Source of the DNA: an uncultured bacterium
Lineage (GTDB): Bacteria; Cyanobacteriota; Vampirovibrionia; Gastranaerophilales; Gastranaerophilaceae
Assembly: GCA_949283255.1 (NCBI GenBank)
Contig: CASDRS010000015.1
Span: forward strand, 1 to 64,000
Reading direction: 5' to 3'
DNA: 64,000 bases
The translations under genes and the position numbers were made by a program. Below are positions 41,004-43,991 of this stretch, one piece after another. Each line of letters begins with the position of its first letter. The stretch's first letter is position 1. The notes beneath the pieces are model-generated. The model was not told the DNA's origin. It did no database searches and saw nothing but the letters and a program-made list of their open reading frames with translations.

Positions 41004-41255
41004 CTAACCTATCCAAGATTTTGTTGCGGTTGGAGGAAGTATTGTCGGCTGTGCAGTATCATATTTTGCTAAGTTGTGTGCAATATTTGCAGAATCTGTA
41101 TTAGCAGTAACTTTATCAATATTGTAATTTTGTGCAGCAGGGTTTGTTACGTTTGCCATTGTTGTCGCAGCGGTAGCAGAATTTGAATCACCGTATTGGG
41201 TGATAAAATCACTTCCTATTTTTGGTTGCATTGTAATTCCGTTTAGCTGAAACAT
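41004..41255 (-). CDS. Small unknown protein (Asn/Thr/Ala-rich)
   Basis: 83 residues starting MFQLNGITMQPKIG and ending TKSWIG; rich in Thr, Ala and Asn, no signal peptide, no cysteine. The paired gene just upstream ends FFSIG, so both finish with an aromatic/Ser-Ile-Gly tail. They are 8 nt apart and likely co-transcribed. Unrecognised; a structural or secreted role is possible. Confidence 0.6.
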   Translation of the reverse strand: MFQLNGITMQPKIGSDFITQYGDSNSATAATTMANVTNPAAQNYNIDKVTANTDSANIAHNLAKYDTAQPTILPPTATKSWIG

Positions 41256-41263
41256 TTTGGCTC

Positions 41264-41557
41264 CTATCCTATTGAAAAGAATGAAACATTTTGTGGGGTA
41301 TTATATCCGAAAAATCTGCTCATACCGCCTTTGTTGTAATCTTGTACAATATCATAATTTTTGATGATACCGTCCATGCCTTTTGAAACACCAAGGGCAT
41401 CGTTAACTTTCATAGCTACGTTAGCCATCCCAAAAGTTCTGTTATCATAGTTTGGCATGCTGATTTTACTTGTATTATATGCGCTTGAGACATCACCTGC
41501 ATCCGTGTATCTGACACGTCCTATTGCGCCTATAGCTTGTTGATCTTCGTAGCCCAT
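41264..41557 (-). CDS. Small unknown protein (first of a pair)
   Basis: 97 residues: MGYEDQQAIGAIGRVRY..., with a middle of Asn, Asp and Met-rich turns and the end QNVSFFSIG. AAGGAAG lies before the ATG. It heads a two-gene unit with the 83-residue gene. The 240 bp upstream hold a palindrome (41733-41749) and the divergent thrS promoter. Unrecognised. Confidence 0.6.
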   Translation of the reverse strand: MGYEDQQAIGAIGRVRYTDAGDVSSAYNTSKISMPNYDNRTFGMANVAMKVNDALGVSKGMDGIIKNYDIVQDYNKGGMSRFFGYNTPQNVSFFSIG

Positions 41558-41732
41558 TGTTCTTCCTTCATAATCCTATTGTATATCTTATATATATAAA
41601 GTATATAATATATAGAAAATTGCCTAATCGGCATGCTGACTGTTAACAAAAGTTAATATATCTATGTGGATTTTTCTTGTATATATCATGCCCAACTTTT
41701 GTCGAACAAAAACGTAATGTTAAGTTTTGTAA

Positions 41733-41749
41733 AGTGTAAAACCTACACT
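41733..41749. promoter_or_regulatory. Candidate operator AGTGTA-N5-TACACT
   Basis: A perfect 6-bp inverted repeat with 5-bp centre, overlapping a TATAGT-like -10 on the minus strand toward the 97-residue gene and lying 48 nt before the thrS -35 box. A TTTTGT-CGA-ACAAAA palindrome lies nearby (41697-41711). Regulator unknown. Confidence 0.35.
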
Positions 41750-41796
41750 ATATAGGGCATTTTTGGTACTCAAAAAAAATTAATTAAAACAATTTA

Positions 41797-41825
41797 TTGA
41801 CATTTAAAATGTTCTATGCCATAAT
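41797..41825 (+). promoter_or_regulatory. Strong promoter of the thrS leader
   Basis: A perfect TTGACA (41797-41802), exactly 17 nt, then CATAAT (41820-41825) preceded by TGC. Transcription would start near 41832, about 365 nt before the thrS ATG. Confidence 0.75.
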
Positions 41826-41831
41826 AAGTAC

Positions 41832-42197
41832 ATAAGATTTAAGTGTAGTCGAAACACTAAATATAAATAGATTCATTAACCCCAAAAACATATAAACTCC
41901 TAAATAATAAACACTAAAAGAGACCATTAGGATGCAGAAAACGACCCACTCAGAAAATTAGAATTTATTTTTAAATATCATTTTTTAATGCTTGTATTTG
42001 CTTTTTATGGGTGGTATAACCTTACTTGTACAGTTAGGGGGATCCGCCCCAAGGTGCGTATGCCGTTCCTGTTTTTTAGTTCGTGAGAGGCTTATGGATT
42101 AAGATAGCAGGTTGCTCGTAGTAGCGAAGGCAATACTTATATATATGTTGTTATTTGAGTATTCACGCATCGCAGAAGGATATGAAAGGATTAAAAA
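41832..42197 (+). ncRNA. Long untranslated leader of thrS (possible regulatory or separate RNA)
   Basis: The gene-free stretch 41558-42197 is the largest in the window. Its second part is a 365-nt leader with base composition less A/T than other spacers between about 42040 and 42130. Small hairpins are visible: AGTGT/ACACT (about 41843-41863), GGGG/CCCC around GATCCG (42037-42050), TTGCT/AGCGA with loop CGTAGT (42112-42127), and AATACT/AGTATT (about 42131-42162). A short ORF MQKTTHSEN lies at 41932-41961. A known RNA class was not recognised; it could be a thrS control element or an independent small RNA. Confidence 0.45.
41932..41961 (+). CDS. Possible leader peptide MQKTTHSEN with tandem Thr codons
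   Basis: ATG-CAG-AAA-ACG-ACC-CAC-TCA-GAA-AAT-TAG inside the thrS leader, 100 nt after the predicted start of transcription. The two adjacent Thr codons upstream of a threonyl-tRNA synthetase would fit transcription attenuation. The ribosome-binding site is weak, and two Thr codons can be chance. Confidence 0.25.
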   Translation: MQKTTHSEN

Positions 42198-43991
42198 ATG
42201 GAAAAAAACAATGAAACTCTTCATGTGTTGAGACACTCAACATCTCACATTATGGCACAGGCTGTTCAGAAGCTGTTTCCGTCAGCAAAGTTGGCTATCG
42301 GACCTGCTACTGACACCGGTTTTTATTATGACTTCGATTTAACTGACGGGCATGCTTTTACGCATGATGACCTTGAAAAGATTGAAGAAGAAATGAAAAA
42401 CATAATTAAGCAGAATCTCACATTTGAAAAATATGAGATTAAAGATGTTGATGCTCAGATTGCAGAGTTCAAGCGTGAGGGCGAAATTTACAAGGCTGAA
42501 TTATTGGAAGAGCACAGAAACGACAATCCTACTTTATATTTAACAAAAGATAAAGATGGAAATGTATTGTTTAATGACCTTTGTGCAGGACCTCACATCC
42601 CTAATACATCTTATATTAAGGGTAATGCTTTAAAATTGTTAAAGGTTGCAGGTGCTTATTGGCGTGGTAATGAAAAGAATAAGATGTTACAACGTATATA
42701 TGCAACTGTTTTCTGGACAAAAGAAGATTTGGCAGATTATCTTCATTTCTTGGAAGAAGCTGAGAAGCGTGATCATAGAAAATTAGGTGCAAAACTTGAT
42801 TTGTTCTCTACAAGAGAAGAACTTGGCGGAGGGCTTGTTTTGTGGCATCCTAACCTTGCAATTGTCAGAGAGGAAATTGAAAATTACTGGAGAACTGAAC
42901 ACAGAAAACGTGGTTATGTGATAGTAAACACTCCTCATATTGCAAAATCTAAGTTGTGGGAAATTTCAGGACACGCAGATCACTATAAAGAAAATATGTT
43001 CTTTATTCAAAAGGATGATGATAGTGATGATCAATTTATATTAAAGCCAATGAATTGTCCTTTCCATATATTAATATATCAGGCAAACAGATACTCATAT
43101 CGTTCTTTACCTTTAAGAATGGCCGAATTGGGTACTGTTTACAGAAAAGAAAAATCAGGAGCTTTGTCTGGTTTGACACGTGTTCAAGGCTTTACTCAAG
43201 ATGATGCTCATATTTTCTGTACGCCAGAGCAGTTAGTTGATGAAATTAATGAAATTATTGACTTTGTCGCAGACACTATGAAGATTTTCAAGATGGATTT
43301 TGAGGTTGAACTTTCAACACGTCCTGAAAGTTATGTTGGTGAAATTGAAAATTGGGACAGAGCCGAAGCTGGTCTAAAAGAAGCTATGGACAAGCGTGGT
43401 ATGAAATATGATATTAACGAAGGTGACGGAGCTTTTTATGGTCCTAAAATTGATTTCAAGGTAAAAGATGCTATCGGTAGAACTTGGCAGTGTGCTACTA
43501 TCCAGTTAGACTTCAATCTTCCTGAAAGATTTGATATTAAATATCAGGATAAAGACGGACAGATGAAGACTCCTGTTATGTTGCACCGTGTAATCTTCGG
43601 ATCTATGGAAAGATTCCATGGTATTTTAATCGAACATTACGCAGGAGCTTTCCCTACTTGGCTTGCTCCAACTCAGGTTGCTATTGTTCCTATCAGCAAT
43701 GACAAGCATACTGAGTTTGCCGAAAAGGTTTATAAGAAGATGCGTGATGCCGGAATTAGGGCTCATCTTGATGACAGATCTGAAAGTATGAATTATAAAA
43801 TCAGAGAAAGTCTGCAAGATAAGAAGATTCCTTATGTTTGCGTAATCGGCGATAAGGAAATCGAGTCTGATTCTGTTGCTGTAAGAGCAAGAGGTATCGG
43901 ACAAATCGGTACATTCACTGTTGATGATTTTATTTCAAAGATAGAAGAAGAAATAAAATCAAGAAGCTGTGATTCTTTTGCAAAAGCTTAA
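42198..43991 (+). CDS. thrS: Threonyl-tRNA synthetase, short form without TGS domain
   Basis: Charges tRNA-Thr. 597 residues: the N-terminal TGS/N1 domain of E. coli ThrRS is missing. The protein starts at the editing (N2) domain with HSTSHIMAQAVQ (the HxxxH zinc/editing motif) and DLCAGPHIPNTSYIKG. Class II motifs include VYRKEKSGALSGLTRVQGFTQDDAH (motif 2) and the C-terminal anticodon domain (QVAIVPISNDKHTEFAEKVYKKM). The short form is typical of Cyanobacteria. A weak GAAAGGA lies near the ATG. It is preceded by the long leader and followed by a clear terminator. Confidence 0.96.
   Translation: MEKNNETLHVLRHSTSHIMAQAVQKLFPSAKLAIGPATDTGFYYDFDLTDGHAFTHDDLEKIEEEMKNIIKQNLTFEKYEIKDVDAQIAEFKREGEIYKAELLEEHRNDNPTLYLTKDKDGNVLFNDLCAGPHIPNTSYIKGNALKLLKVAGAYWRGNEKNKMLQRIYATVFWTKEDLADYLHFLEEAEKRDHRKLGAKLDLFSTREELGGGLVLWHPNLAIVREEIENYWRTEHRKRGYVIVNTPHIAKSKLWEISGHADHYKENMFFIQKDDDSDDQFILKPMNCPFHILIYQANRYSYRSLPLRMAELGTVYRKEKSGALSGLTRVQGFTQDDAHIFCTPEQLVDEINEIIDFVADTMKIFKMDFEVELSTRPESYVGEIENWDRAEAGLKEAMDKRGMKYDINEGDGAFYGPKIDFKVKDAIGRTWQCATIQLDFNLPERFDIKYQDKDGQMKTPVMLHRVIFGSMERFHGILIEHYAGAFPTWLAPTQVAIVPISNDKHTEFAEKVYKKMRDAGIRAHLDDRSESMNYKIRESLQDKKIPYVCVIGDKEIESDSVAVRARGIGQIGTFTVDDFISKIEEEIKSRSCDSFAKA

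Follow-up and report, generated by a model that had tools for sequence, protein, structure and literature searches.

Two conserved blocks upstream of thrS

Does the long interval between a promoter and the thrS gene in this member of the Gastranaerophilaceae constitute a single regulatory leader? The window, the whole stretch of 64,000 nucleotides analysed here, belongs to a 1.82-Mb assembly of 22 contigs and encodes at 42198-43991 (+ strand) a threonyl-tRNA synthetase (ThrRS) of 597 amino acids without a TGS domain. An earlier reading of the sequence alone had drawn attention to a promoter upstream of this gene, and the promoter is present as described, with TTGACA at 41797-41802, a spacer of 17 nt and CATAAT at 41820-41825 on the same strand; about 365 nt do separate it from the thrS ATG at 42198. 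Several explanations had been offered for the interval: a single thrS leader under the control of a Thr-Thr leader peptide or of a structure mimicking tRNA, or else an independent small RNA located before thrS. The region 41797-42197 is here predicted to comprise two unrelated RNA elements, a small RNA (sRNA) gene and then the thrS leader. It is likely that the first is an sRNA gene lacking one arm of its terminator and that the adjacent leader is a ThrRS-binding, anticodon-mimicking operator with a pseudoknot in the region of the ribosome-binding site.

When positions 41830-42197 were searched against the DNA of 57 relatives, the matches fell into two separate blocks. The sequence-only reading had made its case depend on conservation in relatives, and such conservation is strong in the first block, where the 127 nt past the promoter exhibited 100% identity in two congeners (G006 and G009) and 95-99% identity in several other genera. 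The later block was matched solely ahead of thrS among the places examined. The two blocks are separated by 1.6 kb and one gene in G006, are divergent in G002 and G008 and lie on different contigs in G004, G017, G024, G028 and G033. In G011 and G003 the arrangement is that of the window, with the sRNA block directly 5’ of thrS and in the same orientation, but a terminator lies in between.

Searches of Rfam with the whole window, and with 41700-42300 at E values up to 10, yielded nothing above the family cut-offs, in agreement with the earlier statement that no known class could be recognised. No tRNA or tmRNA was found in the window. Neither the sRNA nor the variant of the thrS leader was found in Rfam or in the literature searched on RNAs of Melainabacteria/Gastranaerophilales and on synthetase leaders, a search that lay mostly outside subscription journals.

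The thrS leader

The thrS leader proper is predicted to occupy approximately 42027-42197, downstream of a predicted promoter of its own, TTGTAT-17-TATAAC at 41992-42020, which was recognised from the sequence and is matched by a similar block before thrS in relatives. From 5’ to 3’ the leader is composed of hairpin A (GUUAGGGGGAUCCRCCCC), hairpin B and the ribosome-binding region, all on the + strand. In the window, hairpin A was located by motif search at 42033-42050, with the strands GGGG (42037-42040) and CCCC (42047-42050) enclosing the loop GAUCCG (42041-42046), and hairpin B was assigned to 42130-42165. Allowing up to one mismatch, the hairpin A motif was present in 99 of 286 genomes of the order at one copy each, and the control yielded zero; 90 of these genome matches were read in given or fetched loci, 8 lay in loci already covered and G154 was excluded. 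The next start codon was that of thrS in all 104 instances of hairpin A (14 in loci fetched for thrS, 90 found by the motif alone), which represent 94 distinct leaders.

A model of the leader built on nine sequences (R2) matched 92 of 94 sources, in a search that excluded leaders with long inserts and some others, and was found in 106 of 241 genomes of the order, all within the family of the window, and not in the other 135. Covariation in relatives, the supporting test named in the earlier reading, was positive. In an alignment fitted to the structure (A4, 85 distinct rows), 94.4% of cells pair and two-sided changes occur in 19 of 20 pairs, with a covariation score of 0.397 compared to 0.129 for shuffled and at most 0.053 for slid controls over the same 85 rows. 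Alignments that had not been fitted gave the same trend, with two-sided changes in 8 of 20 pairs (A3) and 10 of 12 pairs (A2), the former consisting of 9 of the 17 leaders in the latter. Five leaders (L285, L288, L290, L341 and L369) carry inserts of approximately 100-200 nt between hairpins A and B, sharing stretches such as GCCGGTGTGAAGT...CACAGGCGG; these inserts resemble a repeat, either mobile or structured, that has entered the leader.

Pairing of hairpin A with the ribosome-binding region

The loop of hairpin A has a candidate partner, GGAY, close to the start codon, which was identified by covariation and in the window is the GGAU at 42178-42181, just 5’ of the ribosome-binding site; a second GGAU follows at 42188-42191. 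Pairing was assessed by comparing the second letter of the hairpin A loop with the letter that follows the first AGGA in the 40 nt before the start codon. Among 103 leaders the combination was A/U in 73 and G/C in 30, with no mismatch; counted over the 94 leaders, the figures were 67 and 26, with one leader unscored (start codon placed too early). Eight of these 26 G/C leaders possess two AGGA sequences followed by different letters, and in each it is the first, not the second, that fits loop A. When the pairs were placed on a tree built from the initial 270 nt of thrS, at least 10 changes of both letters were counted. All independent contrasts agree, 10 on the best tree and 4 on well-supported branches, the latter too few for a sign test by itself to reach 0.05. 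Taken together, the covariation between loop A and GGAY indicates that the pairing AUCC:GGAU or GUCC:GGAC is very probably real.

In most leaders the paired GGAY lies approximately 14-24 nt 5’ of the start codon, adjoining or overlapping the Shine-Dalgarno region, and it is often not the GGA closest to the start codon. The order of the strands suggests an H-type pseudoknot that would hold hairpin B in its long loop.

Hairpin B as a candidate anticodon mimic

Threonyl-tRNA synthetase reads G35 and U36 of its tRNA, leaving the first anticodon letter free. Leaders were scanned for NGU occupying positions 2-4 in loops of 6 nt or positions 3-5 in loops of 7 nt. With a stem of at least 4 bp, such a loop was present in 79 of the 94 distinct leaders, as against a mean of 14.9 (maximum 22) in dinucleotide shuffles and 36 for the best other letter pair. 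With a stem of 3 bp the count rose to 89, against a high background of 32.7 in shuffles (maximum 43) and 66 for the best other pair. No NGU loop was found in 15 of the 94 at 4 bp, nor in 5 even at 3 bp. The first letter in the 3-bp set was U in 52 leaders, C in 19, G in 9 and A in 9. For comparison, the anticodon loop of the tRNA-Thr(CGU) of a relative (L118) is UUCGUAA.

The loop pattern, together with the covariation of the stem, argues that hairpin B is a mimic of the tRNA-Thr anticodon arm, to which ThrRS would bind. The proposal of tRNA-mimic control thus holds for the leader at approximately 42027-42197, although not where it had been placed: the conserved mimic is the hairpin nearer to the start codon, and not the hairpin with CGT in its loop that the sequence-only reading had singled out. 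Under the proposed mechanism, ThrRS in excess over tRNA-Thr would bind hairpin B and, so bound, would lock the pseudoknot or shield the ribosome-binding region, limiting its own synthesis. Plentiful uncharged or free tRNA-Thr would draw ThrRS off and allow translation to resume. The direction of control, with ThrRS repressing thrS, is likewise presumed.

A structured leader could also pair loop A with GGAY but answer to an input other than ThrRS, such as ribosome standby, another protein or a small molecule. Such a reading would accommodate the leaders that have no NGU loop, and it leans on the pseudoknot, which is the best-supported feature of the leader, binding by ThrRS being a prediction. 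We nevertheless regard it as unlikely, since with 4-bp stems no other letter pair shows an excess at the anticodon position comparable to that of NGU, and the leader element occurs only before thrS. Binding by ThrRS is the preferred explanation.

The copy of the leader in the window departs from that of its relatives. An insert of approximately 80 nt (42051-42128), recognised as non-conserved by comparison with relatives, lies between the hairpins and contains the hairpin noted earlier; its CGT at 42117-42119 does fall in a predicted loop, but the insert is absent from relatives. Within the insert a 7-nt loop, CUCGUAG, is possible on a 4-bp stem. Hairpin B itself is degenerate, with an 8-nt loop (UAUGUUGU, 42144-42151) that contains UGU and has lost its closing pair, and the score of this leader with model R2 is low at 34.9 bits. 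Both loop A (AUCC, 42042-42045) and its partner GGAU (42178-42181) are preserved. Compared with relatives, the predicted switch may be less strong, or its role may have passed to the hairpin of the insert.

As in the window, 17 other ThrRS genes that bear the leader begin just before the LRHS motif and encode no TGS domain. The domain is present in G015, G016 and G030, where no hairpin A was found near thrS. Within the family it occurs in some genera (L061, L062 and L063) and is missing in most (compare L042-L060). Many relatives without a TGS domain are also without the leader, so the link between the two is loose.

The small RNA gene

Positions 41832 to approximately 41957 (+ strand) are predicted from the sequence and from comparison with relatives to be a stand-alone sRNA gene of about 140 nt, whose promoter is the conserved TTGACA-17-CATAAT at 41797-41825. 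The suggestion of a separate small RNA ahead of thrS is borne out for this part of the interval and not for the remainder of the 365 nt. An own promoter, an intrinsic terminator and conservation apart from the neighbouring genes were all found in relatives; in the window the terminator is lost. In relatives the block terminates in CCCACTCAnnnTGAGTGG followed by a T-run, and two-sided, compensatory changes were seen in 3 of the 7 pairs of the terminator stem. Neither the 5’ hairpin nor an internal CCUAA/UUAGG pairing varies, so the comparison is no evidence either way for those helices. The alignment used (A1, 21 rows) excludes the copy of the window, L029, L030 and several near-identical copies.

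A covariance model of the sRNA (R1) matched in 289 of 383 genomes of the order, mostly at one copy each. In a sample of the phylum 114 of 292 genomes matched, all of them inside the order and none outside. Searches of Rfam with the sRNA loci of eight relatives yielded nothing above cut-offs, and the distribution points to a lineage-specific family absent from Rfam. A search of viral contigs with the sRNA core returned 0 exact matches. The model found nothing in the nearly complete genomes G032, G112, G114 and G117 of the same family (genus g21), or in genera g44 and g48, reflecting either lineage-specific loss or strong divergence.

The neighbours of the sRNA vary. Over 138 loci the commonest gene cluster, which we take to resemble rsmG, was adjacent in 31 and thrS in 7. 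Upstream of the sRNA in the window, at 41004-41557 on the - strand, are two small proteins whose tails resemble each other (WIG and SIG), and similar small proteins with such tails are found upstream of the sRNA in many relatives. The contigs of many assemblies stop at the sRNA (G009 C2 and C4, G060, G221, G330, G209 and G229), probably owing to its near-identity among co-resident species.

Probable loss of the terminator arm

Among 116 distinct copies with enough downstream sequence, the second arm of the terminator was absent from that of the window alone, a count obtained with scripts and by-eye reading of the flagged rows. A first script flagged 24 of 105 copies, all of which proved on inspection to have a stem followed by a T-run, their stems containing G-U pairs, mismatches or longer loops. 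A second flagged 4 of 132, with 6 more too short; three of these (L103, L113 and L118) have other stems and the fourth is the window. A fold test flagged 6 of 116, namely the window and five copies (L012, L024, L085, L109 and L146) in which both arms can be seen by eye; the T-run of L024 is weak. With the second arm gone, read-through into thrS is expected in this genome, and the sRNA transcript should continue into thrS, a prediction for one assembly.

The arm might instead be missing through an assembly join within the near-identical sRNA repeat, with no real loss. Contigs do end at the sRNA in several assemblies (G009 C2 and C4, G060, G221 and G330), as such an error would lead one to expect. 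Either side of a join ought to retain a terminator, however; beyond the break the sequence continues directly with the thrS promoter, and the same gene order, terminator included, is found in G011 and G003. An artefact of this kind appears improbable, and true loss of the arm is preferred.

Loss of the arm also bears on the original idea of one 365-nt thrS leader acting from 41832 as a single cis-regulatory RNA. No terminator divides the two parts in this genome, and the sRNA is close to thrS in the 7 loci mentioned above. The idea is nonetheless very unlikely, as relatives carry the first part as an independent gene closed by a terminator, located elsewhere or on the opposite strand to thrS, and thrS carries its own promoter-like block. 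Attenuation by threonine through the ORF MQKTTHSEN at 41932 was rejected and merits almost no credence: the ORF is present, short and with two adjacent Thr codons, but the Thr-Thr peptide is not conserved (MQK-stop in L026, MQKTN in L022 and L025), its AGG abuts the ATG so that no spaced ribosome-binding site is available, and it lies inside the sRNA and outside the thrS transcript of relatives.

Palindromes and possible role of the small RNA

Two palindromes of the form AGTGT-N7-ACACT flank the sRNA promoter. The distal one (41733-41749), centred at approximately -91 from the start of the sRNA, is a probable operator on the grounds of its conservation. The proximal one (41842-41858), at approximately +11, is a second probable operator and also forms the 5’ RNA hairpin, in which capacity it could matter as well. 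Among 98 distinct sRNA copies with enough upstream DNA the proximal palindrome was present in 95 and both in 58; in 57 of the latter the spacing was 106-110 bp, and in one 116 bp, despite differing DNA between the two.

The whole genome to which the window belongs contains six such palindromes compared to one for the control. Three of them lie at C9:95449 (L076), C4:4098 (L073) and C6:81504 (L075) of this genome (G000), the first of which sits after the TTGACA/TATAGT promoter of a small protein gene. The strict form, AGTGTA-N5-TACACT, was found in 18 of 32 genomes at one or two copies each, and the control pattern once in three of them. Of 15 strict palindromes away from the sRNA, 10 are directly before typA/bipA (in G000, G001, G002, G003, G004, G008, G009, G012, G017 and G018) and 5 are elsewhere, three of these inside or far from genes. 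The identity of TypA was tested in two cases: L074 scored above the NCBIfam cut-off, and for L271, a truncated fragment, TypA was the best match. The two palindromes probably bind one regulator, which would also have a site before typA/bipA in related genomes, and a shared regulator of the sRNA and typA is the simplest reading of this arrangement.

The middle of the sRNA contains ACUCCUAAAU and AACCCC, which are predicted to be able to pair with ribosome-binding sites. A genome-wide search for targets with TTTAGGAGTTTATATG, allowing up to 3 mismatches, gave 59 matches, one of them the sRNA itself, compared to 78 for the reversed pattern; a few of the matches were at gene starts, but the search revealed neither enrichment nor a target. 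The most likely function of the sRNA is put forward tentatively, at rather less than an even chance, as trans-acting repression of translation.

In being a short stand-alone gene with a strong promoter and an intrinsic terminator, and in its mostly unstructured middle with CCCC and CUCCU stretches, the sRNA is similar to 6S RNA and other trans-acting sRNAs; it differs from these in not being in Rfam. Its identification as 6S RNA itself was rejected, as the sole match to RF00013 in its own genome is elsewhere, at C7:30125-30303 (L072). That locus is a probable 6S RNA, at 38.3 bits against a cut-off of 46.4, and thus below the Rfam threshold.

Comparison with known synthetase leaders

Anticodon mimicry in the mRNA of a synthetase has its textbook case in E. 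coli, and T-box leaders provide tRNA-related control of thrS in Firmicutes. Unlike a T-box, the present leader is short and has no terminator, and no Rfam T-box match was obtained in the window or, at E values up to 10, in 41700-42300. The two sources consulted describe E. coli thrS as a precedent for anticodon mimicry and blocked 30S binding (PMC9976931, PMC3858243), its control following tRNA identity rules (PMC9976931), with ThrRS impeding the binding of the ribosome at a hairpin by which the ribosome-binding site is split (PMC3858243).

Relative to E. coli thrS, the present leader is similar in having an anticodon-arm-mimic hairpin just 5’ of the ribosome-binding site, another hairpin upstream and, presumably, repression by free ThrRS. 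It differs in that the loop of hairpin A is fixed as GAUCCR/GGUCCR, with no NGU and hence no second anticodon mimic, and pairs with GGAY at the ribosome-binding region, and in that the loops of hairpin B are 6 or 7 nt long and accept any letter at the first anticodon position. The ThrRS concerned lacks a TGS domain and comes from a different phylum. As the upstream hairpin is not anticodon-like, the leader is not counted as a member of the E. coli thrS operator form; it appears to be a variant of the ThrRS-operator kind, with the logic of E. coli thrS in a different build.

Pseudoknots in the region of the ribosome-binding site also have a parallel in the rpsO operator of E. coli, which is stabilised by its own product S15 (PMC3858243). 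Ligand and sequence differ from those of rpsO, and an effect of ThrRS on the pseudoknot of the present leader is presumed.

The chances are about even that the locus holds an independently evolved ThrRS feedback switch, combining a pseudoknot, formed by a rigid 5’ hairpin loop and the ribosome-binding region, and an anticodon mimic inside it with a ThrRS that has lost its TGS domain, together with an otherwise stand-alone sRNA fused in this genome to the thrS transcript. Recurrence of the E. coli logic on another scaffold, in a gut lineage that is distant and mostly uncultured, would point to anticodon mimicry arising more than once. With loops of UGU, CGU, GGU and AGU, the leaders offer a ready-made series in which the letters read by ThrRS could be tested, and the sRNA provides a poorly studied order with an RNA family of high conservation and with a small regulon, consisting of the sRNA and typA, that is open to testing.
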